A stretch of 64,000 nt of DNA from Brevibacillus laterosporus (lineage in GTDB: Bacteria; Bacillota; Bacilli; Brevibacillales; Brevibacillaceae), in contig CP033464.1 in NCBI GenBank assembly GCA_007833815.1, positions 5,067,501 through 5,131,500 of the forward strand. The letters are read 5' to 3'. Numbering within the stretch: position 1 is the stretch's first letter; every line of letters starts with the position of its first letter. The notes under the pieces are model-generated. The model had not been told where the DNA came from. It worked only from the letters and a program-made list of their open reading frames with translations, and made no database searches. Positions 6,601-64,000 of the stretch are shown here, piece after piece. The position numbers and the translations under genes were made by a program.

Positions 6601-8205
6601 ATAAACAACAATTTTACCTGTTACTTGAACCAAATCTCCTTCTTTCAAATCTGGATAACTGGTCCATTTGCTTGCAAACAAATTAATGCCTGCTGTATCG
6701 TCCTGTATATACGTGGATAGCTTTCCACCACCAATAGATGCGTTATCTGCTGTTACAATACCCTGAAGAGTAACTACTTCATTTACCTTTTGTTTCAAAT
6801 CTGCAATCGAAGCAATACTTGCTACTAACGCTTCCGATACAATCTCCTCTGCTAAAAGGTTACCAGACATACCTTGAATCGTATTGGCTTTGAGACGCAG
6901 CTTATTATTGCGTCCTCGTAACCCCTGCTCCAATTCAACGATTAGCTTTTGTCCCTGAATGGCAACGCGATCTCCTTGTCCAAGAGAAGTGAAGGCGCTA
7001 CCATCTCTCGCTAGTTGAATGGCCTCACGCACCGCTTCTACGGGGACAGCGGCTGTAATTTCTTCATCAAAATGTAAGGTAATTCGTTTGTTATCACCGT
7101 CCAGCTTAGCATCCAAGTATGCAGGGGCTCTATTGTTTTTGTAATTTTTGAAATTTATGGAAAATTCTGGCGATATCAAATTGGAGAGGGCACCAAACAC
7201 CATGTCATGTTTGACAACCACTTGCACATGATCTACGCTGTCTTTCGCCTCATGTCTCACCGCTTTTCCAGAAAAGGTGATTCTGAGTCGATCGTCTCCT
7301 TCCAGCTTAGCTGTATAACCAAGTCCCTCTGGCAACCCTTTTACTTGCACGCTTGATTTAAAAAATAGAGGCAGGAACTTGGCATGGTGAAGCTTCACCA
7401 TAAGAGAATCGGAAACACTACCGTCGTTAGCATCTGATTCATCCAAGCTACTAGTAGATAACGTGATAGATGGACCAGGTTTCTTTACCACTACTGGGAA
7501 CAACCCAATTCGATGGTCCACTTCTGCTTGAATCAAAGCTAGTCCAACTGCTTTTGCTGTAACGACGCCTTCTTCATTCACTGTAGCAACTCGTTTGTCT
7601 GAAGAACTCCAATTTGCTACCCTTCCTTCAATCTCTCTTCCCCTACTATCGATTGCAATCGCTTTCAAAGTTAGACTTCCATCATCGGCAGAATCGATCT
7701 CTAAGACATTATCGTCTGCTAGGTTCTCTACCTTAACAGCAAACACTTTAGTCGGTTTAGACTGTACAAGAAACGGCTTTGATGTTTTTTGTGATTCGTA
7801 CGCCTCTACACGTACAGACACCAATTTATCCAGTTCTCCACCCTTTATAGGTTCAAAATGGGTACGTGCTGTTTTGCTTGCTTCATCCCAAGAAAAATCT
7901 GTTGTTTCTAGTGAAGACCATCCTTCAAATACATTCTCCTTGATAGAAATTTGAAAATCCTCAAGCTCAGGCGTGTCTTCAGGAATAGCAGATAACGTGA
8001 TTGTCATTTCTCCATTGTCTGCCGATACATCTTTTACCTTTACCTTCTTTTGTTTTACTTGTTTAACATTTTCCTGTGGTGCTGTCGCTTCTTGCAATTC
8101 CGTTGTGTCTGTCGCTTGCACAGCAACAGGCAGGCTGAATGAAAATACCATGCATAGAGCCATGAGAGCATTCATCCATTTAAGGTACCTCTTTCGTTGC
8201 GACAA
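3649..8205 (-). CDS. Secreted multidomain nuclease: Big/Ig domains, OB folds and a thermonuclease domain
   Basis: A 1518-residue exported protein. The TTG at 8205 is preferred to the GTG at 8214 because the AAGGAG site ends directly at the GTG but sits 8 bases before the TTG. After a signal peptide come a Big_2 domain (about 155-245), an SbsA-like Ig region, two YhcR-type OB folds (about 465-655), and a staphylococcal-nuclease-like domain (about 680-823). The nuclease residues are present: VRFVNMDTAET, GERAK and DAYGRLLAEV supply the Arg, Glu and Arg. Two more OB folds (about 900-1065), two atrophied Ig domains, a Big_6, a Big_4 and a last OB fold follow. B. subtilis YhcR has a related OB-plus-nuclease plan, but the 5'-nucleotidase half and an LPXTG anchor are missing here. 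It probably degrades extracellular DNA/RNA as a Ca2+-dependent enzyme at the cell surface. Confidence 0.85.
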   Translation of the reverse strand: MSQRKRYLKWMNALMALCMVFSFSLPVAVQATDTTELQEATAPQENVKQVKQKKVKVKDVSADNGEMTITLSAIPEDTPELEDFQISIKENVFEGWSSLETTDFSWDEASKTARTHFEPIKGGELDKLVSVRVEAYESQKTSKPFLVQSKPTKVFAVKVENLADDNVLEIDSADDGSLTLKAIAIDSRGREIEGRVANWSSSDKRVATVNEEGVVTAKAVGLALIQAEVDHRIGLFPVVVKKPGPSITLSTSSLDESDANDGSVSDSLMVKLHHAKFLPLFFKSSVQVKGLPEGLGYTAKLEGDDRLRITFSGKAVRHEAKDSVDHVQVVVKHDMVFGALSNLISPEFSINFKNYKNNRAPAYLDAKLDGDNKRITLHFDEEITAAVPVEAVREAIQLARDGSAFTSLGQGDRVAIQGQKLIVELEQGLRGRNNKLRLKANTIQGMSGNLLAEEIVSEALVASIASIADLKQKVNEVVTLQGIVTADNASIGGGKLSTYIQDDTAGINLFASKWTSYPDLKEGDLVQVTGKIVVYKNLTEITPETAADIVVVSSGNHVPKAKSLTVAELNEAALAEEYEGMLVSSKAYLLSVPSSESGGGYNLRMIDEHFQGITVRVMKESFDVTQLMAGKWYQVEGVLSQYNDLYQLLPRKQVDVELLQDQPGTPQPEGAYQSVVKDVVDGDTIHLSKPVLGVDTVRFVNMDTAETYHIKDPNFDYTKVYSGTDNTSKDHNQKAHGERAKHHLKGLLAPGDSITIKPAPTPIDAYGRLLAEVFLSDGRNVNLEMVREGHASMYIIWPVKDETFNQYSKAIKEAKQAGIGIWNVQDPLTELPFEFRAREQKKTLSRPVGDASTKTYVEPLDFNKVGVENRLFFNSTQEAEQAGYTKALIDDKSSLAAIRQLPDKTSLVTATGVVSTVSDSRNSFYMQDDKAGILVFQPVTQTAVKPGDVITISKGLKDTYNSEVEIMQAEFSITGTTTEPRAISVEANQLLEKQGMLIRLAEASVSQVTPSKLMVTTSTGSLEVFLGKYGITLPELREKDVVDVTGIASIFKSSAQLYPRSAQDIIILRSGLTDADRVAADKASLSVGDDSGTVRTDVVLPTSGVYGSSITWVSDQPTVISEQGKVVRPAKGSPDTKVTLTATLQKGTSSDTKMFSLTVPAQTITDEEAIEAVKTSLNVTYNGTATSVSLPKMGANNVTIEWNLQDQAHSIIVQVDNGHVNRAAVTKTTEVVLIATMKLGAAQSQKAFSITVTPLGDVPVVHPITAADTLVTGTAKPGSKVTVRTGATLVGNGTVDQLGVFSVKIPAQSVGTVLEMIASNQATQYESEAVYVLVTESTGAPSIVVVDGVTASVRKGAEYTLPATVLASMSNGSKQQVPVSWNPNVADTSSLGTFSFEGTIEGYAQKVRLTLQVTEEEAGLTVAQALALPQGTTITLEAYVQTVEPNAQFAGYGVYLADQPGDETTNALIVKFANEDRNGPFSVANAAGKRIKITGVLHDKAYFSKKGIATYTLIQLAP

Positions 8206-8214
8206 TTCATTCAC

Positions 8215-8472
8215 TCCTTTTTAGATAGATTTTTTGAAAAAATAACGATATGAGATCTGCCAGTATGTTCCCTATTTCAGAAAAATAAGAAAAAAGTATT
8301 CTGGCATTTTCACTATAGGGTAGACTTTCATTTTTTACATGATCTTTTAGTAGGATTTTTTAGAAAAGAGCAATTTATAAGATCATTCCCACTGTTAGTA
8401 TAAAACGGTTATATTAATTTTACACAAAGCCAGTATTAGAGATCTGTAAAAAATTTCTAAATAGAGCTTCAT
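8215..8472. other. AT-rich intergenic stretch upstream of the secreted nuclease
   Basis: About 260 bases with no credible gene in either direction. It must contain the promoter of the leftward nuclease operon, but I cannot point to a convincing -35/-10 pair. Several TTTTTT/AAAAAA tracts are present. Confidence 0.4.
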
Positions 8473-8970
8473 ATGTACGAACTTGCATCAGGAAAATCAG
8501 CTGTACCTACACTGTCTCTTCTTACAGAACAAGACAATAATTCTTTATACTGTTACAATTATTTGGTTAGCCGTTATTTATCTGCTCCTGGCATCCAAGC
8601 ATTAAAACCTTTTAGTAAAAATCCCGTGATTTATGCTTTGTTAGTAGGGCTATGCTTTCGTTCGTTTTCCATTGAGCTATCTTTTTTTATCTGATCTCTT
8701 CTAACAAGCTTATCCAGTGCCTTTCTTGCGATTGCACTCGTAACACTCGGCACTCAATGTGCTTATCTAAATCTTAGACATTTTAGCTTGCCGCTAGTGC
8801 TTAGCCTCGTCGGAAGATTAATTCTTTCACCTTGCCTTACACTACTAATCATCACTTTGATGGGACTAGAGGGAGTCACAGCCAAGTTCTCTTAATCGCT
8901 AGCTCCTATCCTAGCTACCGCCACAGTGCCCTGTTCGCTTTAGAGTATGGCAATGGCCAGAACAAATTCG
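8473..8970 (+). pseudogene. Remnant of an AEC-family (auxin efflux carrier-like) transporter
   Basis: The C-terminal third of an AEC permease can be read: NPVIYALLVGLCFRSF, then an in-frame TGA at 8692-8694, then LSSAFLAIALVTLGTQ, LPLVLSLVGRLILSP and MGLEGVTA in the same frame. After that a one-base shift near 8887 leads to LLIASSYPSYRHSALFALEYGNG. All these segments are typical of the last transmembrane helices of AEC transporters. The N-terminal two thirds are absent, there is one nonsense mutation and at least one frameshift, so the gene is dead. The flanking genes are unrelated, so the remnant gives no pathway clue. Confidence 0.75.
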
Positions 8971-9022
8971 TACGGAGAAGAAAACGCGGAACTTTTCCCG
9001 GGAAAGGATAGGTTTGAGACTT

Positions 9023-54154: not shown

Positions 54155-54340
54155 CTATTGTTGTTTTTCTTGTCTATTATTTAGAAACACAGCAATAATA
54201 GCCACCACGGCAGAAACACCGTTAGCAATGGCATTAACCTGTTCATCTGTAATAATTTGGTAGCCGAATGTATCAGCTAATAGCTTTATTGAACCGACTA
54301 TACCTGCAACCAGCATCGGTATATTTCCTTGTTTCTCCAC
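54155..54340 (-). CDS. Small phage holin-like protein (61 aa)
   Basis: One to two hydrophobic helices: IPMLVAGIVGSIKLLADTFGY and VNAIANGVSAVVAIIAVFL, with a charged NNRQEKQQ tail. The size, the position directly after the amidase gene and the ITDEQVNAI..V motif resemble phiLC3-type holins. It starts at a GTG that abuts the amidase stop (TGAGTG), so it is translationally coupled. Together with the BhlA-like gene, two holin candidates flank the amidase. Confidence 0.6.
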   Translation of the reverse strand: MEKQGNIPMLVAGIVGSIKLLADTFGYQIITDEQVNAIANGVSAVVAIIAVFLNNRQEKQQ

Positions 54341-55066
54341 TCAGGCACCAGCTTTCAGGTGATTTGCCATGTTTTTAATGAGCTGGGCAGCGTAATCACC
54401 AAGCACAGTTCCATTAGGGCCAGCATTTTGTTTCCAATAGTCGGGAGAAGTTATGATTTTTGCCTGCACAAGAGCATCCACAGCCATTTGAAAATCGTCA
54501 ATAGGCTCTTCTAAAGCAGGAGAATACGGATGACCGATATGACTGGAAAAGGCCTTGAGCACTGCTTCTGCATATCGTTTCCAATTGTTTGTTAGTTTTT
54601 GTGCATCCCCCACATGGTCAATAAACCCATATTCCATAATAATCGTTTCTACTGCACCTGTTTCGCGATGCATGAAATAATAATCCCGACCATCTGAACC
54701 TACTCGTGTATATACTCTACGGAATCTTTGCCCCTCGGCAGCTACTGCTTGAGCTAAGGCGTTTGCTAGTTTGTTGGAAGTAAAGATAGAGTGAATGGCT
54801 TCTACACCTTCCCCACCGCCTGCATTGATGTGGTTGGAAATACAGTATGTGGCTCCGCTTTGTTTGACGAGGGTAGTACGCTGTGACGGGGTGAGTGTGG
54901 TATCTGTAGTGCGGGTGATAGCAACAGGAAGATTTAATTCCCTACATCTTTGCAACTGGTACAAACCAATTTGCAACGTCAAATCCTTTTCCTGCATATG
55001 ATTTCCACTTGCTCCAGGATCAGCTCCTCCGTGTCCTGCATCAATGATTAAAATCGGTTTTTCCAT
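54341..55066 (-). CDS. N-acetylmuramoyl-L-alanine amidase (Amidase_3) endolysin
   Basis: A 241-residue endolysin. Zinc site and catalytic motifs: LIIDAGHGGADPGASGNHMQEKDLT (first His and Glu), SNHINAGGGEGVEAI (second His), and ETIIMEYGFIDHVGDAQKL (catalytic Glu). A C-terminal section (EEPIDDFQMAVDALVQAKI to NMANHLKAG) is a likely cell-wall-binding domain. The ATG at 55066 has AAGGAGG 8 bases upstream; the ATG at 55072 is too close. Between the BhlA-like gene and the small holin in the lysis cassette. Confidence 0.85.
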   Translation of the reverse strand: MEKPILIIDAGHGGADPGASGNHMQEKDLTLQIGLYQLQRCRELNLPVAITRTTDTTLTPSQRTTLVKQSGATYCISNHINAGGGEGVEAIHSIFTSNKLANALAQAVAAEGQRFRRVYTRVGSDGRDYYFMHRETGAVETIIMEYGFIDHVGDAQKLTNNWKRYAEAVLKAFSSHIGHPYSPALEEPIDDFQMAVDALVQAKIITSPDYWKQNAGPNGTVLGDYAAQLIKNMANHLKAGA

Positions 55067-55081
55067 ACGCATATCCTCCTT

Positions 55082-55348
55082 TTATTCTACCTTTTCTTTT
55101 AATTCTTGCAGTTCCATTTCCAAACCAGATAGGCTTCGTTCAATCTGCTGAAGGGTTGAAGTATTTCGCTCCAGTTGAATGACCATGCGTTCGTTATGTT
55201 CCATGAGTTTGGCTTCGCGTGTCTGTGCTTGTTTGACCAACCTCGTCTCGCGGTCTCTCCCCTCTTTTTTGGTAGAGAATAACAGCCAGACAAACAGAGC
55301 AGCAAACGGACCTTGTTGGAGCAATGAGTTCATTACGCTCTCTTCCAT
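55082..55348 (-). CDS. BhlA/UviB-type holin-like protein
   Basis: An 88-residue protein: MNSLLQQGPFAALFVWLLFSTKKEG is the membrane helix, then a long charged coiled coil (RETRLVKQAQTREAKLMEH, RSLSGLEMELQELKEKVE). It matches BhlA/UviB family holin-like peptides found before phage or bacteriocin lysis amidases. GGAGGG is 8 bases before the ATG. First gene of the lysis cassette, after two terminators. Confidence 0.8.
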   Translation of the reverse strand: MEESVMNSLLQQGPFAALFVWLLFSTKKEGRDRETRLVKQAQTREAKLMEHNERMVIQLERNTSTLQQIERSLSGLEMELQELKEKVE

Positions 55349-55441: not shown

Positions 55442-55472
55442 AATAAAAACGCCTTACTCGAAATGAGCAGGC
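55442..55472 (-). terminator. Terminator of the second tail-tip module
   Basis: Minus-strand GCCTGCTC / GAGTAAGGC hairpin followed by GTTTTTATTT. It resembles the terminator at 59272-59304 that ends the first module, so both copies kept their terminator. Confidence 0.6.
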
Positions 55473-55478
55473 ATCCCA

Positions 55479-55607
55479 TTATTCCTCGTTTTGTTTTGAT
55501 AGATACTCAGCTACGGGAATTTGATAATCTTGGGGGAGAGAATCAATAGTACGTCGTCCTGCTTTGACAAGCAATCCATAAACAGGGATCATGTATTCTT
55601 TTACCAT
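55479..55607 (-). CDS. CD1375-like small phage protein, second copy (42 aa)
   Basis: Reads MVKEYMIPVYGLLVKAGRRT, then IDSLPQDYQIPVAEYLSKQNEE. Homologous to the 50-aa protein at 59309-59461 (MVKPYMIPVYAYLVKSGEWA). GGAGGTGAAC is the binding site, and its ATG overlaps the stop of the coiled-coil gene (TAATG). Family found at the end of tail operons in Firmicute phages. Function unknown. Confidence 0.65.
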   Translation of the reverse strand: MVKEYMIPVYGLLVKAGRRTIDSLPQDYQIPVAEYLSKQNEE

Positions 55608-55771
55608 TATTGTTCACCTCCTTTTAATTCTTCGAGAGCTTGCTGAAGAGCTGTCATTTTTTCATAAAGCTGTGCAATGGCTTCATAGGCTACCACCAGC
55701 TCTGGAGACATCTCCTTTTGTTCACGATCAGCTTGGATTTGAGATAATGCTTTGGGCTTTGTGAGAATCAA
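55607..55771 (-). CDS. Small coiled-coil phage protein, second copy (54 aa)
   Basis: TTG start at 55771, with GGAGG 9 bases upstream inside the end of the fibre gene. Reads MILTKPKALSQIQADREQKE, then MSPELVVAYEAIAQLYEKMT and ALQQALEELKGGEQ: amphipathic helix. It occupies the same place as the 74-aa protein at 59455-59679 in the first module. Likely a tail-fibre-associated helper or small structural protein. Confidence 0.6.
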   Translation of the reverse strand: MILTKPKALSQIQADREQKEMSPELVVAYEAIAQLYEKMTALQQALEELKGGEQ

Positions 55772-57195
55772 TCGAATGCACCTCCGAATCCACGTACAAT
55801 AACAGGCTCTGTTGCGGTTCCTTTCGTGAAAGAAAAACGTAAGCTAACGCCCCATTTCTCCGCTGTTTTTTCCTTATTGGTGAATATAAAGCCTCGGTTG
55901 AACTTGACGAAATTCGTTGCGTCCTCCCACGTTGGTAACTCATCGAAAGCGTTATTTGAGACTTCAACCTTGTAATCAGCTCCTGATGGAACGGTTGCAT
56001 CGATGGTTACCAAAATACGTTTAGCAGCAATGTCTGTTGAGAATGGTTTTTTCAAATGAAACGCTAGTCGCTCTGCCGTTCTCTGAAAAGTGAATGTTCT
56101 GGTAGAGGTCATGCCTTTGCTGTCAGTTGCTTCTATAGTGATAATGTGACTGTCGTTTAAGGAGAGACTTAGCCATGTGTCTTGTGGGATGGTCACGGTA
56201 TTTTCCTTGCTGTCAGTCCCAGCGAATGTGCGAATAACATTGCCGTTGATTTTCTCCGTGATGGTAAACGCGTCACCCTCTGGCTCTGTGACTGTGTAGT
56301 TCTTGGAAGGGATAGCACTTAATACGCCGAGGTCTTCATTTTGTCCGCTGATAACGGGTGGTCTGTTGTGGACGACTCGGAATTTACGTGTGACCTCTGC
56401 TGATTTACCGCCTTGGTCGTCTTCTGTCCAAATGGTAAGAGTATGGTCGGTGTTTTCGGTTAGGTCAGAACCTGTGATATCGGTTGTGTCGTCATAGAGA
56501 CGCTTGGAACGAAACGTCAACGTTTTGGCAAAAGAAATAGGCGTGCTACCGTTGGATACTCCGGATTGCAACGCCCTTGTGGTGCCGTTGTTGATGCGGT
56601 ATTTTATTGTGACTACGTTGTCTTTGTCGGTGTCGGAGGCGGTGCCCTCAATCGCCATGCTATTTCCATCAGCCAATACGAGATTGTCGGAAGGCTTTTT
56701 GATGTTTATCGTAGGTAGTGAGTTAACCAGGTAATCAACTGTAGCTGTATACGCATAGAAGTAGTCGTACGTCCTAGTATCAACTGCTGGTTTTGTTACT
56801 GTTCCTGAGTAGTTCTGTGTAAAGTGCCAAGCACCCGGCAAAGGTTCAATTGTGACAACACCGCCTGATTTATAAAGAGTTCCACTGTATCCACCTTGAC
56901 TATAAGGAATACTTGATGGAAATGAAGGGGGTGTTGAGCTTGTATTTGATATTCCATATCTTGCATCGGTTTCTGTTTTTGATTGAGAAGGTGTATAACT
57001 CCCCCCAGTTTGCACTACCCTGTCATAAGGTCTGCCACTTAGATTGAATGTGATTTCGTCGCCGTTGACTGAAAAAGACACGTTCCCTTTATCTACCGTT
57101 ACACCTCTCACCTGTACAAGTTTAGGAATCGTAAGTCTATGTGTTTGCGATGAATGATTTCTAACCTCGGGAAATGCATGTGTTAATTGAGCCAC
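55768..57195 (-). CDS. Ig-like tail fibre protein, second copy (475 aa)
   Basis: Tail-tip or fibre protein. Residues about 150-370 are Ig/cadherin-like repeats (INIKKPSDNLVLADGNSMAIEGTASDTDKDNVVTIKYRINNGTTRALQSG read in parts; HTLTIWTEDDQGGKSAEVTRKFRVVHNRPPVISG), and the C-terminus has KVEVSNNAFDELPTWEDATNF. The N-terminal 150 residues differ from those of the first-copy fibre. DNA identity to the first copy is locally high (56540-56569 against 60469-60498, 29 of 30 bases). The AGGAGG start is clear. Last large gene of the second module. Confidence 0.75.
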   Translation of the reverse strand: MAQLTHAFPEVRNHSSQTHRLTIPKLVQVRGVTVDKGNVSFSVNGDEITFNLSGRPYDRVVQTGGSYTPSQSKTETDARYGISNTSSTPPSFPSSIPYSQGGYSGTLYKSGGVVTIEPLPGAWHFTQNYSGTVTKPAVDTRTYDYFYAYTATVDYLVNSLPTINIKKPSDNLVLADGNSMAIEGTASDTDKDNVVTIKYRINNGTTRALQSGVSNGSTPISFAKTLTFRSKRLYDDTTDITGSDLTENTDHTLTIWTEDDQGGKSAEVTRKFRVVHNRPPVISGQNEDLGVLSAIPSKNYTVTEPEGDAFTITEKINGNVIRTFAGTDSKENTVTIPQDTWLSLSLNDSHIITIEATDSKGMTSTRTFTFQRTAERLAFHLKKPFSTDIAAKRILVTIDATVPSGADYKVEVSNNAFDELPTWEDATNFVKFNRGFIFTNKEKTAEKWGVSLRFSFTKGTATEPVIVRGFGGAFD

Positions 57196-57255
57196 AAAAC
57201 ATCCTCCTTTCTAATATTGCCGTTATCCGAAGTCATCATAGATTTCCAAACAACA

Positions 57256-57528
57256 CTACACCACCAACCTTTTATTGGCCCCGTCATACCAGCCTTCTGT
57301 TAATGTGATGTCATTAAGCGTTGCAAAATTCTCGAAAAACACGTTGTCCGTGAAGTTGTTAAACACCGCATCTTTTATCGTCTTCACGTCAATCTGCAAG
57401 GCCGAAATAGCCACGGTGTGCTGTTCCAGTAGCTTGTGTGCATCGTCTATTCCCTTTTCCCATCGGTTGATATCCGTCTCCATGACGGGATCATCATACT
57501 GCCAATCTAATTTAGGATTGTACGGCAT
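57256..57528 (-). CDS. Small phage tail-tip protein (90 aa)
   Basis: Reads MPYNPKLDWQYDDPVMETDI, NRWEKGIDDAHKLLEQHTVA and ISALQIDVKTIKDAVFNNFTDNVFFENF in parts. The NPKLDW..DPVMETDINRWEKGI pattern is like N-termini of short tail fibre or collar proteins in Firmicute phages. It lies between the DUF2313-like region and the fibre gene, and shares a base with the preceding gene's stop, so it is coupled. First-module counterpart is not obvious. Confidence 0.6.
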   Translation of the reverse strand: MPYNPKLDWQYDDPVMETDINRWEKGIDDAHKLLEQHTVAISALQIDVKTIKDAVFNNFTDNVFFENFATLNDITLTEGWYDGANKRLVV

Positions 57529-57812
57529 CAGGCTTTCGCTCCTCTCACTTCAAATTCGAATCGGAATTCCAACGATTGATCGCTTAATACATCCACATTA
57601 GCCGTTCTTTCGGTTATGAGATTGCCTGCTTCATCCAGCAGTTTTAAAGTGGACACCTTCGTTATCCCGCTCACTGGCTCTGTTATTACCACAACCTTAT
57701 TTCCATCCTGCTTGGTAGATCTCAATTGGACTGTTTGGTTGTTTAATATGAGGCTAGAAGTACGTTTACTTAAATCTTGTGCCGCCCGTTCCAAATAGGC
57801 TTTATCCATCAA
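57528..57812 (-). CDS. Phage tail-module protein (94 aa), second copy
   Basis: Reads MMDKAYLERAAQDLSKRTSS, then LILNNQTVQLRSTKQDGNKV, a beta-rich domain ending EFRFEFEVRGAKA. No family recognised. Same position as the 99-aa protein at 62032-62331 but little direct similarity. Its ATG overlaps the DUF2313 stop region. Confidence 0.5.
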   Translation of the reverse strand: MMDKAYLERAAQDLSKRTSSLILNNQTVQLRSTKQDGNKVVVITEPVSGITKVSTLKLLDEAGNLITERTANVDVLSDQSLEFRFEFEVRGAKA

Positions 57813-58396
57813 ATAATCACCTCATCCTGATATTTAATAGGAGTCATGCCGACTCGAAATTCGCTAACCTTGTGATAACGTCTCCGATTGATTTTGATAA
57901 TTTCAGTAATCGCAATCTCATTTGACACTGCCAACTGCGGCATGAACACATGCGGAACCCGCTTTCGCTTATGAATATCATGCACCCAAGAGGCTACGTC
58001 ATAAATCGACCACAGAGGAACCGAGATATAGAAATAGCCTGTATCTGGGTTTTCCTCTATGAGAACTTGGTCCGCTGCCTGTTCTTTGATAAAAAGTCTG
58101 GTAATACTACCTGCCAGCGCTGGTGTAAAGGGTAACCGCTCCCGATACTTCGCCATCACACGTGCGCGTCGCGTCTCATAGGAATCACCTTGCTTGGGAA
58201 TAACTTGGAACATATACTCCCAATATGGTAGTCCCCATGTAACTGTTGTGATCATCGTTTGCCGTTCCACATCTAGCTTGCGGGTTTGTTGATAATCCCT
58301 CTCAGCTTCTCCTGCTTCAAAATGATGCACCGCTACCTGATTCTCATACCAATAGGGCGGCAACACAGCTCGATATTTCTCTGGAATCATAGTCAT
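57809..58396 (-). CDS. DUF2313/YmfQ-like tail protein, second copy (195 aa)
   Basis: Reads MIPEKYRAVLPPYWYENQVA, then VHHFEAGEAERDYQQTRKLD. The LPPYWYEN-VA-HF motif is shared with the first copy at 62325-62876. Such proteins sit next to baseplate J in PBSX and Mu-like tails and form part of the baseplate wedge. Rest: DSYETRRARVMAKYRERLPFTPALAGSITRLF. Overlaps the baseplate J stop by four bases, so the module is one translated cluster. Confidence 0.75.
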   Translation of the reverse strand: MTMIPEKYRAVLPPYWYENQVAVHHFEAGEAERDYQQTRKLDVERQTMITTVTWGLPYWEYMFQVIPKQGDSYETRRARVMAKYRERLPFTPALAGSITRLFIKEQAADQVLIEENPDTGYFYISVPLWSIYDVASWVHDIHKRKRVPHVFMPQLAVSNEIAITEIIKINRRRYHKVSEFRVGMTPIKYQDEVII

Positions 58397-59220
58397 GGCG
58401 TATTCACCGTCACGTTTTTCATAATTGGTATGGTTGAAAAAGTGAAATCGATATTATCCTGAGTACCATTTAGCAAAACATTACGATAATCAATAACACC
58501 ATCTACTTTGAACAAGCGATATACCTCTGAATAAAGTATCTTCTTGCTCTGTTTGTTGACATATGCCACAATGCCAGCTTGTATCTTCTCTTTTATTTCT
58601 TCTATAGATACAGTAGATTCCCACTCCAGCAAGTCTCCACTTACCGTTACTTCCAATGCTTTCGCTGCTTGCACCATTACTTTGTCGTTGAGGCTATGCT
58701 TATCTGGCAATGCCAGATGCTCCGTTACTTCCTTGACCAATTCTTCACTGGCAGGTTGCCCATCTTGGTCGGTTAACGCAATGTGCACCGTATTTGGCGC
58801 CTCACCCCAGATAAACACCTCTCCTACATTAGGTACTTCTTTCACCCAACGTTTGTAATCATACTCAGCTCCTGTTCCTTCCTCTTCCCCAGCCTTAGCT
58901 ATTAAACGCTGGCGATATAATTCGTCTGGCTCGTTTGCTTTTCTCTTCACCCCTAAAAACACACCCCAGGCATCCAAGAATTCCCCATCTGCCCAAGGCA
59001 AATACCATTGTAGAAAACGATATTCATCTAATTGTTGCTGCTCGGAGATTTCCATAGCGAGTGGGTAGTGAAAATCATAAAAAATCTCGCCTTCTTCTGG
59101 GGAAGGTGGAGTCTCACCACGGGCTGTAGCAAGTTCACTTGCGCGATTATACATCCGTTGGTAAATTTCTTCCGCTGTCTCGCGCAGCAGCGGCATGTCT
59201 GGTTTTTTTACCTCTGCCAT
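58393..59220 (-). CDS. Baseplate J-like protein (XkdT type), second copy
   Basis: A 275-residue baseplate wedge protein. Key segments: MPLLRETAEEIYQRMYNRASELATARGETPPSPEEGEIFYDFHYPL (in parts) and MEISEQQQLDEYRFLQWYLPWADGEFLDAWG, typical of baseplate J (gp47-like). It shares EEGEIFYDF-YPLA-EISEQQQL with the first copy at 62873-63688. The leader AAGGTGGTGATAGATAT is also a fossil of the xkdS 3' end (see findings). Start ATG at 59220. Confidence 0.85.
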   Translation of the reverse strand: MAEVKKPDMPLLRETAEEIYQRMYNRASELATARGETPPSPEEGEIFYDFHYPLAMEISEQQQLDEYRFLQWYLPWADGEFLDAWGVFLGVKRKANEPDELYRQRLIAKAGEEEGTGAEYDYKRWVKEVPNVGEVFIWGEAPNTVHIALTDQDGQPASEELVKEVTEHLALPDKHSLNDKVMVQAAKALEVTVSGDLLEWESTVSIEEIKEKIQAGIVAYVNKQSKKILYSEVYRLFKVDGVIDYRNVLLNGTQDNIDFTFSTIPIMKNVTVNTP

Positions 59221-59244
59221 ATATCTATCACCACCTTATCAATT

Positions 59245-59268
59245 GGAGAGCCGTATAAACGGCTCTCC
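59245..59268 (-). other. Perfect hairpin in front of the second baseplate J gene
   Basis: GGAGAGCCGT / ACGGCTCTCC, 10-base stem with a 4-base loop, between the first module's terminator and the leader of the second baseplate J gene. It could be a regulatory hairpin or part of the duplication joint. Confidence 0.6.
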
Positions 59269-59271
59269 CAT

Positions 59272-59304
59272 CAAAAAACGCCTACTCATTACACATGAGA
59301 GGCG
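59272..59304 (-). terminator. Terminator of the first tail-tip module
   Basis: Minus-strand CGCCTCTCAT / ATGAGTAGGCG hairpin followed by TTTTTT. It separates the two modules, so the second module needs read-through or a promoter not identified. Confidence 0.7.
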
Positions 59305-59308
59305 CCTC

Positions 59309-59461
59309 CTACTTCTTATTAACTTGATCTGCTAAGAATTCTGCCACTGGCAGCCTGTATGCTTCGGGTAGAATTTTTTGTGCGTTTTTCACCGGTTCTA
59401 TTGCCCATTCGCCTGACTTTACTAGGTATGCATAGACAGGGATCATGTATGGTTTTACCAT
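59309..59461 (-). CDS. CD1375-like small phage protein, first copy (50 aa)
   Basis: Reads MVKPYMIPVYAYLVKSGEWA, IEPVKNAQKILPEAYRLPVA and EFLADQVNKK. It is the homologue of the 42-aa protein at 55479-55607. The ATG lies inside the stop overlap of the coiled-coil gene (AATGGTAA). Ends just before the module terminator. Confidence 0.65.
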   Translation of the reverse strand: MVKPYMIPVYAYLVKSGEWAIEPVKNAQKILPEAYRLPVAEFLADQVNKK

Positions 59462-59679
59462 TGTTTCTCACCTGCTTTCATTGATTTCACTTCATCTTCC
59501 AAAGCTAAAATTCGATCATTTAGCTGTTTTATTGTCTCTTGTGACGATACGTTCTGCTTATCCAACTGTACAATTGCCTCCAAAGTAGATATCAATTCCT
59601 CAGGTAAATCAAGTTGATGCCCTGGTGTTTCTACCACATTACCAAATGTTCCGTCTGGATTTCTCTTTATATATTCCAC
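59455..59679 (-). CDS. Small coiled-coil phage protein, first copy (74 aa)
   Basis: Reads MEYIKRNPDGTFGNVVETPG, then HQLDLPEELISTLEAIVQLD and a coiled coil (KQLNDRILALEDEVKSMKAGEKQW). The NPDGTFG start is like phage tail assembly helper proteins (XkdW-like). One base overlaps the fibre stop. Counterpart of 55607-55771. Confidence 0.65.
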   Translation of the reverse strand: MEYIKRNPDGTFGNVVETPGHQLDLPEELISTLEAIVQLDKQNVSSQETIKQLNDRILALEDEVKSMKAGEKQW

Positions 59680-61361
59680 TATCTAATCACCCCCACTAGC
59701 ATGACGGCTGATTCATTTGTACTTGTATTGGTCCTGCTCAATGTCAGCTTGAACATAACATCTGATTTTGCTGTAGCTACAGTGCTAATCAACTCATCCT
59801 CTGAAATCAAAGTAGTAAGATCGACACTTTCCTTGGTCATGGCTGTATATTGCTCTCGCAGTCCCTTATCTACAAAAGATGCCTCAGCATCAACAACTAG
59901 ATTGCCTTTTTCTCTCTTTAGCCAAGCAAGTATTTCTTTGGCTGATCCTTTTGGTGCTAGGATTTTATAACGAGCAACAGATTTTTTCATAGGTGTTTCT
60001 GTTACGGCGTTGGTTACATTGAAGGTCTTAACTGTCGATAACCCAAACTGGTCTGTAGATGTTATCGTCACGGTGTTAGCTCCAGCTTTAAGATCACTCA
60101 CTTTAAACGAATACGACCAATTACCACTTGCAACACCGCTGAGCACCGTTTGTTCCGTACCGCTGTTGAGCTTCCCTTTTACTGTGAGGGTATTCCCGTC
60201 TGGATCGGATGAAGTACCTGAGAGAGTAATAGAATCCGGTGGAATCAGACCAGATTGCACAGCAGGGAACGTGCCAACAGTAATAATAGGAGCCTTATTG
60301 TGCTTAACGGTAAAAGTACGGGTGACGACATCAGATTTACCACCTTGGTCATCCTCAGCCCATATGGATACCGTGTGATTGGTTCCTTCTCCTAGTAACC
60401 CTGATACATCAATGGAGCCGTCATACAGTCTACCACCTCGGTAGGTTAGTCCCTTGGAAAAAGAAAGAGGCGTGCTACCGTTTGATACTCCGGATTGCGC
60501 CGCCCTTGCCGTTCCCGTATTGATTTGGTATTTGACCGTGACGACATTACCATTGTCACGGTCAAACATAGTTCCTTCCAGTCGTAGTATTTTATCTTCT
60601 ATTAATACTTGATTATCAAGAGGAGAGATTACTGAAATAGCCGGAGGTTCGTTCAAAAATTCAAGAACGGGACGCCATCCAATATGTTTATATGTTTTCA
60701 ATCCAAATGGAGAAGCAAAACCATTCGCAGCTGTTCCTACAGAGTAACTCCCACCCCGTGCAGAATAGGATTTAGTTCCTTCACTAACGAGTTCTTGACA
60801 CCAAGATACCATAGAATACCAATTCCAAGTTTTATTATGCTCACTCTGCACATTCTCAACAGTACCTTGGCTTGGATTATTAATATCATAATTACTTGGT
60901 TTTGGCAGTCCAACGATCCCACTTTCGTTTATTACAATACGATCCCACTCGTTTGAAGGCATCCCCCCAAAAGGGCTATTGCTAATTGAGCCACGCCCCC
61001 TTATACCTCCGCTTAAAATTCTACATTTATATTTTTCTCCATCTATTGTTACTATTTTTCCTTTAACCAAGCCAAGATCATCTAAGGTTCTCCATGATAT
61101 ATTAGCGATTAGAACCCTGTCACATATAAAAAGTATCTTTCCATTATCATTCACCTTGTGCCATTTGACACGTTTTGAAGAAGATGTTGAAGTATTATTG
61201 AAATTAATTGTGTAACCATCTCGGTAATCTGGTATATTTCCACCATAAAAAGCTCCAGGCGGGATAACATCCGATGGATAGGGTCTTGTAGGAATATCAA
61301 TTTCTGTTCCGTTAAAAGATAGAGTACCTAACTCAACTAAGCCTAGGTAAATCACTGCCAT
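59679..61361 (-). CDS. Tail fibre with C-type-lectin-like domain and Ig-like repeats, first copy (560 aa)
   Basis: Receptor-binding candidate. N-terminal beta part, then a section that resembles the C-type lectin/FGE fold: PFGGMPSNEWDRIVINESGI, WNWYSMVSWCQELVSEGTKSYSARGGSYSVGT and HIGWRPVLEFLNEPP. The RGGSY...GWRPVLE pair is a familiar C-terminal signature of that fold. Ig-like repeats follow (about 240-430): GTMFDRDNGNVVTVKYQINTG, HTVSIWAEDDQGGKSDVVTRTFTVKHN, SGTSSDPDGNTLTVKGKLNSG. C-terminal domain KILAPKGSAKEILAWLKREKGN. The repeats are shared with the second-copy fibre; the lectin-like section is not. Confidence 0.75.
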   Translation of the reverse strand: MAVIYLGLVELGTLSFNGTEIDIPTRPYPSDVIPPGAFYGGNIPDYRDGYTINFNNTSTSSSKRVKWHKVNDNGKILFICDRVLIANISWRTLDDLGLVKGKIVTIDGEKYKCRILSGGIRGRGSISNSPFGGMPSNEWDRIVINESGIVGLPKPSNYDINNPSQGTVENVQSEHNKTWNWYSMVSWCQELVSEGTKSYSARGGSYSVGTAANGFASPFGLKTYKHIGWRPVLEFLNEPPAISVISPLDNQVLIEDKILRLEGTMFDRDNGNVVTVKYQINTGTARAAQSGVSNGSTPLSFSKGLTYRGGRLYDGSIDVSGLLGEGTNHTVSIWAEDDQGGKSDVVTRTFTVKHNKAPIITVGTFPAVQSGLIPPDSITLSGTSSDPDGNTLTVKGKLNSGTEQTVLSGVASGNWSYSFKVSDLKAGANTVTITSTDQFGLSTVKTFNVTNAVTETPMKKSVARYKILAPKGSAKEILAWLKREKGNLVVDAEASFVDKGLREQYTAMTKESVDLTTLISEDELISTVATAKSDVMFKLTLSRTNTSTNESAVMLVGVIR

Positions 61362-61418
61362 TTTGCATTCATCCCCCTTAGAGTGTTATTCGAGGCTAAT
61401 CTTGTAATTCATTCCCAT

Positions 61419-62039
61419 TTATCCCAACGAAATCGTAATCGTGTGTGTATTCCAACCACCGATTTTCATTTTCTGCACAGTTGTATCACGATTCACCGTT
61501 GATCGTGCGATCATGGCTCCTTTTTTGTAGCTGTTGATCAGCTTAGAAAGGGTTATCTTCCCTGATCCAATGGCTGTGATAGTCTGATTTTCAAAAGCTG
61601 TATCGTCACAGATCGTAACTTCTTGTCCAACTGTGAAGCCTGTTGTGGAAGCAACAGAAATAGCCACAGCAGAAGCACTAGAGGATAGAGCTACTGTGGC
61701 ATAGGTTTTTGTCTCATCCAATTGTAAAACAGGGTCTATCTGCCCGTCGTAAGTGTCTGCAAATCTCGCCTGTGCTCCGGATACTCCTCGACTATCAATG
61801 TCTAAATGTGCTTCAATACGGGAAATACGGCGACTCGCTTTTTCAATCAAAAAGTGAGCACGATAAATCCCATCTTCCATGTAATTCAATCGAATTTCAT
61901 CTACAGGCGTACCTGCAATCTGTTCCCACGCAGGGATAATGGAAACTGTACCGTCTTCATTTTGATGAAAGTTGTATGTGTTGGGGCGATTAACAAGACG
62001 GTTGATGTGGAGCTGTTTTTCATACGCCAAATTATTCAC
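61419..62039 (-). CDS. Phage tail-module protein (206 aa), first copy
   Basis: Begins MNNLAYEKQLHINRLVNRPN with a GTG at 62039 in the end of the previous gene. Helical N-terminal third (IIPAWEQIAGTPVDEIRLNYMEDG), then a beta section (ATVALSSSASAVAISVASTTGFTVGQEVTI, IGSGKITLSKLI). Resembles carbohydrate-binding or fibre-attachment proteins of phages, but not a family I can name. It occupies the place of the 90-aa protein in the second module but is unrelated. Confidence 0.55.
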   Translation of the reverse strand: MNNLAYEKQLHINRLVNRPNTYNFHQNEDGTVSIIPAWEQIAGTPVDEIRLNYMEDGIYRAHFLIEKASRRISRIEAHLDIDSRGVSGAQARFADTYDGQIDPVLQLDETKTYATVALSSSASAVAISVASTTGFTVGQEVTICDDTAFENQTITAIGSGKITLSKLINSYKKGAMIARSTVNRDTTVQKMKIGGWNTHTITISLG

Positions 62040-62331
62040 CTGCCTTCCATTGTAGTTCGATTGGTATGCTAAGAGTTATTTCACGGTTAGGTTTCTCCAT
62101 TTGCAAGCAATCTTCCCAAACTACCTGTCCGTTGACATCTTTTACAATACATTTCGTTACTATTCCTGTCATGGAGGCTGAGAGACGGATCAAAAAAGTA
62201 ACTTTATCAACACTTTGTCGTATTTTCAATAAACTAACAGGAACGATTTTATCATCCAGTTCTACCTCTGCCGAATAAAAAGCAGATTCCAAGGCATTTG
62301 CCTGTCCCTCTAATAGATGGTCAGTTAGCAT
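62032..62331 (-). CDS. Phage tail-module protein (99 aa), first copy
   Basis: Reads MLTDHLLEGQANALESAFYS, AEVELDDKIVPVSLLKIRQS and a beta-rich end. No family recognised. It lies between the DUF2313-like gene (7-base overlap) and the 206-aa gene, the place held by the 94-aa protein in the second module. Confidence 0.5.
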   Translation of the reverse strand: MLTDHLLEGQANALESAFYSAEVELDDKIVPVSLLKIRQSVDKVTFLIRLSASMTGIVTKCIVKDVNGQVVWEDCLQMEKPNREITLSIPIELQWKAGE

Positions 62332-62876
62332 AAATCATTCTCTCCTCCGCTAAAAAAAGCACCACAATCCCTTTTTTGTGTTTCATAAAACTTTGTCAGA
62401 CCTGATGTAAAGGTAATCCCTCCATGACTACTTGCAATGATTTTCTCTTTCAGAACATGAACAGGTCGTATTTTTTCAAAATCAACTGCTAGCTGCATCA
62501 GATTTATTGATCGATAACCTGAGAACTCAAATATGATTTCCTTATTAGTGAAATCCTCTGTAACTTTCTTTAGATCTCCTGCCATTCTGCCTAATACATA
62601 TAATGTATCTAATGTAAAATTGGCTTTTGCTATATTCTTTTTACGTATCGCTTCTCGTCTTTCTTCTACTGTACCGTTTCGTTTGTCCCGAAAATATATC
62701 CAATCCCATATATCTAATCCAAAGATGGCATAGGGCAAAAGGTACTGATTTCCTAATTCTTCTATTTTATTTTTTTGAAACAAAATCTCTTCTCCTGTTG
62801 ACACAAAATGGAGCCCTGCTACTTCGTTTTCATACCAATATGGCGGCAATTGCTGGCGATATCGAAAAGGAATCAT
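62325..62876 (-). CDS. DUF2313/YmfQ-like tail protein, first copy (183 aa)
   Basis: Reads MIPFRYRQQLPPYWYENEVA, then GLHFVSTGEEILFQKNKIEE. The LPPYWYEN-VA motif is common with the second copy. Middle: WIYFRDKRNGTVEERREAIRKKN. Four-base overlap with baseplate J stop. Baseplate-wedge-associated. Confidence 0.75.
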   Translation of the reverse strand: MIPFRYRQQLPPYWYENEVAGLHFVSTGEEILFQKNKIEELGNQYLLPYAIFGLDIWDWIYFRDKRNGTVEERREAIRKKNIAKANFTLDTLYVLGRMAGDLKKVTEDFTNKEIIFEFSGYRSINLMQLAVDFEKIRPVHVLKEKIIASSHGGITFTSGLTKFYETQKRDCGAFFSGGENDLC

Positions 62877-63688
62877 AGCTCAACCACCAAATTAACACGC
62901 GGAACAGCCTTTATTGGTTTACTAAGATTTTCTGTTCCGTCATTTAAAGTATAGTTTGTATAATCCTTTACACCATCAACCCAAAATAGTGCACCTAATA
63001 AATGATACACAATGCTAGTACTCCCTTTTATATATTCTTGAATTCGATTTGTAATAAGTGAAGTTATCTCCGATCTCTTCGATACATCATCTAATTGAAG
63101 CTTTACCCTCACATTAAGGTTGAAAATTTCAGCAGGAAAACATTTCAAATCATGACCTGCAATACGTTTTGGCTCCAGTTGATTCTGTAAGAGAGAAGCA
63201 AATTCTAATGTAACAGGCTGACCCTTCAAATCAGTCAGATATAAATCAATCGATACATCGTGACGTTCGTGTTCAATAGCAACTGCGCCACCAACTCCCT
63301 CCATTTCTAAGGCCCATCTGATATAGTCCTCTGCGCGTCCATTTCCCTCCTCTGTTCTCTTTTTATGGAGAATGCGTTGTCGATAGACTTCCGTTTCCTC
63401 TCCCTCTTTGCGATCTACTCCTTCTGCATATCCATGAGCATCCAGAAACTCACCGTCACTCCAAACGACAAACGCCTGTAGGAGACTATATTGGGATAAT
63501 TGTTGCTGCTCCGATATTTCTTTTGCTAACGGGTACCAAAAATCGTAAAAAATCTCCCCTTCTTCTGCAGTAGGAGGAGATTGTCCGTTTTCTTTTGCAT
63601 ATGCAATAGCACGATTGGCTATACGCTGATAAATATGGTCTGGACTTTCTTGAAGAATCGGCATTTGTGGTTTCTCTATCGTTTCCAA
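62873..63688 (-). CDS. Baseplate J-like protein (XkdT type), first copy
   Basis: A 271-residue baseplate J protein: MPILQESPDHIYQRIANRAI, TAEEGEIFYDFWYPLAKEISEQQQLSQYSLLQAFVVWSDGEFLDAHG (in parts). Homologous to the second copy. It starts at a TTG (63688) that overlaps the end of the XkdS-like gene (GATATTTGGAAACGATAG), with the AAGGTGGTG leader in the upstream coding region. Confidence 0.85.
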   Translation of the reverse strand: METIEKPQMPILQESPDHIYQRIANRAIAYAKENGQSPPTAEEGEIFYDFWYPLAKEISEQQQLSQYSLLQAFVVWSDGEFLDAHGYAEGVDRKEGEETEVYRQRILHKKRTEEGNGRAEDYIRWALEMEGVGGAVAIEHERHDVSIDLYLTDLKGQPVTLEFASLLQNQLEPKRIAGHDLKCFPAEIFNLNVRVKLQLDDVSKRSEITSLITNRIQEYIKGSTSIVYHLLGALFWVDGVKDYTNYTLNDGTENLSKPIKAVPRVNLVVEL

Positions 63689-64000
63689 ATATCTATCACC
63701 ACCTTAGTATTTCCGCGTGTCCCTTCAATTTCTAGCCTTAGGGCAATCCGATTGTCTGTATACCTACTATCGGTGACCTCTGCGCGTTCAATCTCTGAAT
63801 GAGCTTCCAACGCATCCTCCACATCGCGTTTGATTAAAGTCAAGGGCACATGCTTTGGCAGTTTTCCAATATGCTCAAAAAAGTCTACCCCCATTCGATC
63901 GCTGTAAATAGCATATTGGAAGCGCTTGGTATGCAGGATTTTTTTCGCAATCTCTTCCAAATACTCAGCATAATTGCTGGTCTTTACATGTCTACCATCT
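63676..64000 (-). CDS. DUF2634/XkdS-like tail protein, 5' end outside the window
   Basis: The frame is open to the edge of the window, so the gene is partial and begins beyond 64000. Readable: DGRHVKTSNYAEYLEEIAKK, ILHTKRFQYAIYSDRMGVDFFEHIG, LIKRDVEDALEAHSEIER and the end TKVVIDIWKR. The KTxR-xYAIYS...G--F segment is the DUF2634/XkdS pattern, a baseplate protein preceding baseplate J in PBSX-type tails. Confidence 0.75.
   Translation of the reverse strand, partial: DGRHVKTSNYAEYLEEIAKKILHTKRFQYAIYSDRMGVDFFEHIGKLPKHVPLTLIKRDVEDALEAHSEIERAEVTDSRYTDNRIALRLEIEGTRGNTKVVIDIWKR

Follow-up and report, generated by a model that had tools for sequence, protein, structure and literature searches.

A second set of baseplate and fibre genes inserted into a tailocin-like locus of Brevibacillus laterosporus

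The 64,000-nucleotide stretch of Brevibacillus laterosporus analysed here (hereafter the window; assembly GCA_007833815.1, contig CP033464.1, positions 5,067,501 to 5,131,500) holds part of a PBSX-like contractile tail locus with two sets of baseplate and fibre genes. It belongs to a 5.76-Mb genome (G000, contig C4 from 5,067,501), and positions above 64000 refer to the adjoining genomic sequence, numbered in the same way. G and L numbers denote genomes and loci, respectively, and 'own' denotes the window strain (G000).

On the minus strand, the locus runs from a sigma-70 region-4 regulator through two genes without assigned function to sheath, tube, XkdN, tape measure, XkdP, XkdQ, XkdR and XkdS. 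After XkdS come T1-U1-a1-b1-F1-cc1-X1 (module 1), T2-U2-a2-b2-F2-cc2-X2 (module 2), and then a holin, an amidase and another holin. A repressor-like gene lies at 73272 on the strand opposite to the regulator. Here ‘set’ refers to one T-U-a-b-F-cc-X series, whose members are listed in Table 1. The single sheath, tube, tape measure, P, Q, R and S serve as the only shaft genes ahead of the two sets. PBSX of Bacillus subtilis has the same order as here, xkdK-M-N-O-P-Q-R-S-T-U-fibre-X, holin, amidase, and is known with one set only. A preliminary description of the window, made from its letters, had noted the repeated gene order, and both sets are present as it described.

Table 1 Features of the two baseplate and fibre sets and their surroundings, in minus-strand order.
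Feature	Position	Strand	Basis
xkdS-like sheath initiator, common to both sets	63676..64000, runs on to 64104 outside the window	-	Pfam Sheath_initiator PF10934, 1.8e-15
Left copy of 18-bp direct repeat TAAGGTGGTGATAGATAT, within xkdS 3′ end	63689..63706	-	
Front cassette, 4,468-bp insert (module 1, type A), including right repeat copy	59221..63688	-	empty site in L157
T1, XkdT / Baseplate_J, Tri2-type triplex protein, 271 aa	62873..63688	-	
U1, XkdU / Gp48-like, Tri1-type triplex protein, 183 aa	62325..62876	-	synteny and weak matches
a1, small protein, 99 aa	62032..62331	-	relatives in G027, G009, G030, G012
b1, fibre-adjacent protein, 206 aa	61419..62039	-	phrog_17334, phrog_2012
F1, fibre, 560 aa, variable N-terminal part, constant Ig/C-terminal part	59679..61361	-	
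cc1, small protein, coiled-coil-like	59455..59679	-	coiled coil by eye
X1, XkdX-like, 50 aa	59309..59461	-	phrog_1382, 3.5e-4; name XkdX from synteny
Terminator-like hairpin between sets	59273..59308	-	by eye
Second hairpin GGGAGAGCCG/CGGCTCTCC	59245..59269	-	by eye
Right copy of 18-bp repeat, xkdS 3′-end remnant directly ahead of T2	59221..59238	-	
T2, XkdT of native set, 275 aa	58393..59220	-	
U2, XkdU of native set, 195 aa	57809..58396	-	Pfam Gp48 5e-15; diffocin TRI-1 4.8e-5
a2, small protein, 94 aa	57528..57812	-	phrog_6293, 5e-16
b2, fibre-adjacent protein, 90 aa	57256..57528	-	phrog_17196, 15651, 26419
F2, fibre, 475 aa	55768..57195	-	phrog_36643, 10993
cc2, small protein, coiled-coil-like	55607..55771	-	coiled coil by eye
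X2, XkdX-like, 42 aa	55479..55607	-	phrog_1382, 1e-9
Terminator-like hairpin after module 2	55445..55476	-	by eye
Lysis genes: BhlA-type holin, amidase, second holin	54155..55348	-	family scans

The sheath matches phrog_279 (tail sheath, 1.6e-64) and Phage_sheath_1 (2.4e-11), an XkdN-like chaperone was matched at 8e-14, and the contractile sheath, tube and XkdN-type genes stand in the expected order; the tube match to DUF2001 is weak (4e-4) and under the family cut-off. U and fibre proteins match PHROGs labelled virion structural or Hoc-like, and J_71221, o70965 and R have no PHROG match. No capsid, portal or terminase family was found among the scanned products from 54155 to 72547 (s2 and rep lay outside the scan, and s1 entered it as a 23-aa piece only), and no second sheath, tube, tape measure or hub lies between 54155 and 73682. 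The cluster is predicted to be a PBSX-like contractile tailocin without recognised head genes rather than a phage, which narrows the ‘phage tail or tailocin’ of the preliminary description to the latter. PBSX itself is reported to have a capsid protein, XkdG (PMC9406221).

The sheath gene at 69625-70962 corresponds to genome positions 5,137,125-5,138,462, and xkdK of B. laterosporus 1821L is given at 5,137,125-5,138,462 in NZ_CP033464.1 (Babar et al. 2022, PMC9406221). Because these coordinates agree, the locus is that of the already purified 1821L bacteriocin. According to the same paper, polysheath-like structures were observed in purified 1821L lysate, and inducible particles of this strain kill related bacteria. 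An ‘xtmB’ annotated nearby in that paper was not reproduced by our product scans. Two baseplate and fibre sets are not described in the available parts of the paper, where the word ‘baseplate’ has 0 occurrences.

Matching proteins of the two sets were compared by BLASTP within small local sets. Identities are 42% over 268 aa for T1 and T2 (E 4e-58), 34% over 89 aa for U1 and U2 (2e-13), 38% over 271 aa for F1 and F2 (2e-44) and 50% for X1 and X2 (6e-12 to 8e-12). The coiled coils match at 0.002-0.003 and b1 and b2 at 0.001-0.003 over 45 aa, while a1 and a2 give no match. T1 and T2 are 58% identical in residues 1-95 and 32% beyond, and U1 and U2 are 33% and 17% identical in their two parts. Identity of F1 and F2 peaks at 62-65% in F1 281-360 and is 45% in 241-280 and 10-30% in the remaining windows. 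The shared motifs EISEQQQL, LPPYWYEN, SGVSNGSTP and MVK-YMIPVY were all found as previously described, SGVSNGSTP being part of the Ig-like block of the fibres. The likeness of F1 and F2 was rejected as proof of duplication, since it is concentrated in that shared block, which is also found in other fibres.

The preliminary description took the two sets for a tandem, diverged duplication. In-place duplication followed by divergence would account for the same gene order and for the 18-bp repeat. On the other hand, T1 and T2 fall in clades split with 100/100 support in trees of 36 and of 59 XkdT proteins, and T1 is nearer to XkdT of other genomes (51-58%) than to T2 (42%), nesting among other Brevibacillaceae and prophage-like XkdT. 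G003, G001, L157 and L158 carry the T2 type alone at this locus. T2-type XkdT was found in the laterosporus group, G001, G035 (a truncated gene) and the prophage-like contigs L153-L156, and the T1 type is the common XkdT form in the family.

The latter was seen in a survey of 40 genomes of the family, 33 of which have an XkdT-like match (four of them remote only), with loci mapped in the other 29. Two sets in tandem occur in three of the 29 (own, G004 and G005); some mapped contigs end inside a set, so a second set could go uncounted. In G005 the two sets are on two contigs, both ending inside set 1. In G027, G009a and G030 the mapped loci have a front-type set alone, with relatives of a1, b1, F1, cc1 and X1; in the first two of these genomes a similar hairpin pair follows X by eye. 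The tandem count leaves out two further loci. G002 has a relic tailocin with an open T1-type XkdT (L027:6086-8471) among xkdU, xkdS, xkdQ and sheath fragments. In G035, a T2-type module with an N-truncated XkdT and holin-like genes but no sheath (G035:C1 ~3,871,000-3,877,000; L075/L092) lies 17 kb from the main tailocin as an orphan or relic cassette. A 99-aa open reading frame in G010 and L145, 30% similar to T2, was not counted as XkdT.

An empty site is found in L157, which is 98.1% identical to the window over xkdP-xkdS and lacks set 1. There xkdS passes directly into T2 via one copy of TAAGGTGGTGATAGATAT, while in the window the insert is flanked by two identical copies spaced 4,468 bp; the flanking repeat thus occurs once in the empty allele and twice in the filled one. 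The right copy is, by eye, the end of the old xkdS frame (DKVVIDIWQR versus NTKVVIDIWKR). It is diverged in other filled loci, reading AAGGTGGTGATAGAGATG in G004 and AAGGAGGTGACAGAGATG, a near-perfect ribosome-binding site, in G005. The downstream set is therefore native, and the front set entered as an insert of 4,468 bp where XkdS meets XkdT2. Because the trees separate T1 from T2 and a 98.1% identical backbone has an empty site, in-place duplication is rejected as very improbable.

A second set contributed by a neighbouring prophage with its own tail genes, which the preliminary description had named as a case that would speak against it, is more improbable still, as nothing in the sequence speaks for it, there are no second shaft genes from 54155 to 73682 and the insert is bounded exactly by the xkdS/T2 junction. 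Two complete tandem tail clusters do exist elsewhere, in G239 (G239:C1:2505000-2528500; L090+L091), with two sheaths and two Baseplate_J genes ~11 kb apart, and are absent here. Seven genomes of the genus of G239 have two Gp48 matches 10-13 kb apart, mapped in G239 alone.

A 4,458-bp insertion in 1821L relative to strain 1951 has been reported in a region called putative phage (PMC9406221). From its size and place we infer that this insertion is set 1; the paper also mentions two glycine-rich genes there.

The front slot is variable. Eleven backbones of laterosporus type were compared, ten of them distinct (G004 equals L095 over xkdP-xkdS), and they form three groups: the window (type A) with L157 (empty); G004 and L096 (both type A); and a group of six that are 95.8-99.1% identical, namely G005 (type A), G003 with L158 (both empty), L100 (type C) and L098 with L099 (both type B). 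The slot is filled in seven of the ten distinct loci. Types B and C have a common T and U (97.9% DNA identity over 2,467 bp) with a differing fibre part, and the type B X protein is 94% identical to X1. Since empty and filled alleles are found at 98-99% backbone identity, they coexist, presumably within species, and the variation presumably arises from repeated loss, repeated gain or exchange. Among 65 IMG/VR loci found with an XkdT profile, two sets occur in five and one in 60, some on short contigs.

Synonymous divergence between G004 and G005 is 0.20 for T1 and 0.19 for U1 versus 0.34-0.55 for sheath, tube, N, P, Q, R and S; for own-G005 it is 0.44 and 0.28 versus 0.52-0.84 for shaft genes. 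For own-G004, T1 is at 0.36, scarcely under tube, P and S (0.38-0.39). The idea that low divergence proves module 1 to have arrived recently is thus only partly borne out, and the low T1 and U1 values against G005 give only a hint that the cassette spread or was exchanged later.

Parts of the front cassette recur in prophage-like elements. L118 matches 1,436 bp of its DNA that begin at the end of a1 and reach across b1 into F1 (88.2% identity), and 921 bp of F1-cc1 (87.0%). Contig C2 of the window strain matches the 3′ portion of set 1, from the C-terminal part of F1 as far as the hairpins, at 85.7% identity over 1,377 bp; there it lies in a different contractile tail region with T and U unlike module 1. 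In this region (L068, G000:C2:12000-31999, positions 6432-8977, on a 60.5-kb contig) the fibre genes match module 1 at 92% for b, 84% for the F C-terminal part and 81% for cc.

In the prophage-like contigs L153 and L118, xkdP-xkdS is 94.6% identical, and L153 has a T2-type set where L118 has a T1-type set. The sets appear here as alternatives, with a whole-set swap at the xkdS/xkdT junction. A terminase match was found in two of the 12 records searched (L118 and L156), both with internal stop codons. In another prophage-like contig (L166:8336-9671), XkdQ, XkdS and a T2-type XkdT are in pieces beside open U2-type and fibre genes.

Neither module has a DNA match in the ‘phages’ collection, and an origin from a known isolated phage was dropped for this lack of a match. 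For XkdT2 that collection yielded 13 records, all of remote XkdT with identities up to 32%, plasmids gave six remote T1 matches, and a scan of genome contigs gave one close contig, taken as that of G005, and one remote match.

In all seven distinct filled loci of laterosporus type, XkdT and XkdU have open frames in both sets. By the Nei-Gojobori method, dN/dS is 0.06-0.13 for T1 and 0.21-0.25 for U1 in the front set, and 0.07-0.11 for T2 and 0.07-0.17 for U2 in the native set. Shaft values are 0.05-0.08 (sheath), 0.07-0.13 (Q), 0.08-0.18 (S) and 0.14-0.27 (tape measure), and those of the fibres are 0.21-0.45 (F1) and 0.10-0.38 (F2). XkdT and XkdU of both sets are under purifying selection. Together with the single sheath, tube, hub and sheath initiator and with the lack of head-gene families among the scanned products, this supports the suggestion of two baseplate and fibre sets on one tail machine.

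What the sets encode was approached through diffocin, the contractile bacteriocin of Clostridioides difficile. T1 and T2 match Pfam Baseplate_J at 1.6e-17 and 3e-22. A four-sequence XkdT profile matches diffocin TRI-2 CD1371 (8v3w) at 1e-18 and R2-pyocin PA0618 weakly (0.004), and XkdU2 matches diffocin TRI-1 CD1372 at 4.8e-5. U1 was left out of this PDB search, falls under the Mu Gp48 family cut-off (E 0.017), and is assigned by PHROG and weak Gp48 matches with synteny. By these matches XkdT is classed as Tri2/BppJ-like and XkdU as Tri1/Gp48-like. In diffocin, a wedge consists of two TRI-2 and one TRI-1, the sheath initiator contacts the wedge core, adjacent wedges are joined by the TRI-2 C-termini, and the fibre is attached at the TRI-1 C-terminus (PMC10996793). 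Because XkdT matches Tri2 and XkdU2 matches Tri1, each set probably encodes an outer baseplate ring and its fibre.

We propose that each cassette would supply two XkdT copies per wedge, one XkdU per wedge whose end bears the fibre, and the fibre set, whereas sheath, tube, tape measure, hub, spike and sheath initiator would be common and be capped by either ring. Both sets would be kept because both are used, and since they share one shaft, one strain would make tail tips of two specificities. A one-shaft tailocin with native and inserted outer-baseplate cassettes, both used and giving two tip specificities per strain, is the reading that we consider probable.

Different receptors for the two tips, as raised in the preliminary description, are plausible. 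The N-terminal parts of F1 and F2 are unlike, and in some related species the N-terminal part of each is replaced or diverged while the C-terminal part is constant: F1 in G004, F2 in G003, and F2 in G004 at 45-55%, with both near those of the window in G005. The fibres of the window and of L118 (L118:11329-14022) combine constant C-terminal parts with variable, mosaic N-terminal ones that include glycine-rich and Ig-like pieces.

Each particle most likely carries one kind of ring, which would give two particle populations. Homotypic rings are favoured because wedges would join via the XkdT C-terminus, the region of least similarity between T1 and T2. If instead both cassettes were made and co-assembled, mixed wedges or mixed rings would yield bispecific single particles. 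Residues 1-95 of XkdT, which are better conserved and are predicted to lie toward the sheath initiator, would suit such mixing, and T1-type XkdT accompanies varied U and fibre types elsewhere, implying flexible pairing. However, the part that makes the wedge contacts in the diffocin structure is only 32% identical, and the T types alternate on the 94.6% identical backbone of L153 and L118. We consider co-assembly unlikely.

The spacing of the two sets bears on their expression. No sigma-70-like site was found in the 88-nt spacer between them, which holds the terminator-like hairpin and also, correcting the preliminary description, a second hairpin and the xkdS 3′-end remnant. Similar hairpins with a T run do end both modules by eye as had been claimed, but the automatic terminator scan listed neither (its regional count of 10, against 7.0 ± 2.3 in shuffles, is unremarkable). 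Hand-cut strings including the T run gave fold energies of -20.6 and -13.9 kcal/mol for the hairpins ending module 1 and module 2; the counterparts of the first of these, which stands ahead of set 2, gave -19.5 in G004 and -11.8 kcal/mol in G005. Because a terminator-like hairpin precedes the native set, the front set would probably be in excess, unless read-through is efficient.

The same hairpin enters a further alternative, that replacement is under way: the front cassette would have taken over and left the native set as a seldom used remnant, or the other way round, and the tandem arrangement would be temporary. The slot is polymorphic among near-identical backbones, empty sites included, and the 18-bp repeats would permit precise loss. 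Against this, dN/dS of the native set is low also between two filled loci (own-G004 T2 0.088, U2 0.065), the native T and U are without stops, and G005 has the near-perfect ribosome-binding site AAGGAGGTGA ahead of T2.

A separate case in another bacterial family also argues against replacement. A class-wide Gp48 search of 299 genomes drawn from a larger group found a match in 81, and just one same-strand Gp48 pair less than 6 kb apart on one contig (G188), setting aside single genes split in two (G000, G005). One such split match lies at G000:C4:3029560-3030099, where the chromosome of the window strain has another PBSX-like tail region, and a match in G005:C26 is likewise in two pieces. The search undercounts because divergent U proteins are missed, U1 of the window among them.

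The front part of the G188 locus has R, S, T, U, a, b and F, and then, by eye, a frame resembling cc, hairpins and the remnant of a broken R; the back part has S′, T′, U′, a′, a long fibre, and holin-like and amidase-like genes. Since three genes were mapped between its repressor-like gene and sheath, there is no room for a head module, although no head-family scan was made. G102, of the same genus, has the same pieces on two contigs, R remnant included, and hairpins as in G188 were not seen by eye. The front XkdT proteins of G188 and G102 form their own clade (100/100; deeper placement unsure, 85/18), and the back ones group with single-set loci (100/100). Here, too, a new set seems to stand in front of an old one. 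Purifying selection acts on S, T and U in both positions: between G188 and G102, dN/dS is 0.13 (S), 0.08 (T) and 0.04 (U) in front, 0.09, 0.08 and 0.28 at the back, and 0.03 for Q. The spare spike gene (R) has decayed and the spare S, T and U have been kept, which makes an internal control against neutral persistence. With this, ongoing replacement in the window strain is improbable to about the same degree as co-assembly.

Several points weigh against the use of both sets. Joint expression, assembly, two specificities and an excess of the front set are all predictions read from the sequence. The hairpin, together with a spacer in which no sigma-70-like site was found, could leave module 2 poorly expressed, an argument tempered by the reading of that hairpin by eye, unlisted by the scan. 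The front cassette is dispensable, being absent from three of the ten distinct laterosporus-type loci. Constraint on U1 and the fibres is weaker than on the sheath, and own-G004 dN/dS is 0.84 for a1 and 0.58 for a2, on almost no synonymous change. Small genes have gaps: L100 has no recognised X in either set, L098 and L099 have no cc1, and b1 and X1 were not found in G005, where a contig break splits set 1. Further genes were not found toward contig ends in G005, L095, L098 and L099.

Several tailocin arrangements for multiple or changing specificity have been published. Diffocin is likewise a Gram-positive contractile bacteriocin with two TRI-2 and one TRI-1 per triplex, a sheath initiator and a TRI-1-linked fibre, but is described with one triplex set and fibre; XkdT is here ~75 aa shorter, and the hub gene encodes 315 aa versus 581 with a hydrolase (PMC10996793). 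Pseudomonas clusters also hold several specificities each, thought to widen the target range, through extra fibres or two R-tailocins with their own sheath, tube, baseplate and tape measure (PMC10598620, PMC7815802), whereas here a single shaft is followed by two outer baseplates. In Pectobacterium carotovoricin, a specificity locus is exchanged between species by recombination, with fibre loci replaced or inverted (PMC13195805), whereas here a cassette with its own wedge proteins was added ahead of the old one. No published doubled baseplate or stacked set was found by title or abstract opening, mostly outside the subscription literature. Precedents thus exist for multiple fibre genes, for pairs of complete R-tailocins and for exchange of fibre loci.

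The 1821L lysate is reported to be broadly active, with five of 14 lawns inhibited in Table 2 of PMC9406221, one of them a Carnobacterium, and the 1951 lysate is reported to be active only on B. laterosporus strains other than itself, with receptor-binding differences proposed (PMC11245835). This contrast in spectrum is only suggestive, as the lysates hold other particles too.

More speculatively, and we consider this unlikely as a whole, cassette stacking could be a recurrent route to multi-specific domesticated tails, taken separately in two families: a polymorphic front slot would take triplex-plus-fibre cassettes from resident phages, the old tip would be kept behind a terminator, and some rings would carry both wedge kinds.

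Specificity changes of tailocins in the published accounts at hand consist of fibre gene exchange, inversion or addition, whereas here a whole outer baseplate ring would have been added with its fibre. With empty and filled alleles on near-identical backbones and particles already purified, capping by two baseplates and mixing of rings are open to test. The second family, in which the spike copy has decayed and the sheath-initiator and wedge copies are kept, suggests which parts must travel together. The arrangement bears on how a domesticated tail gains targets yet keeps the old ones, and two tip sets may allow a single strain to produce tips of two kinds.

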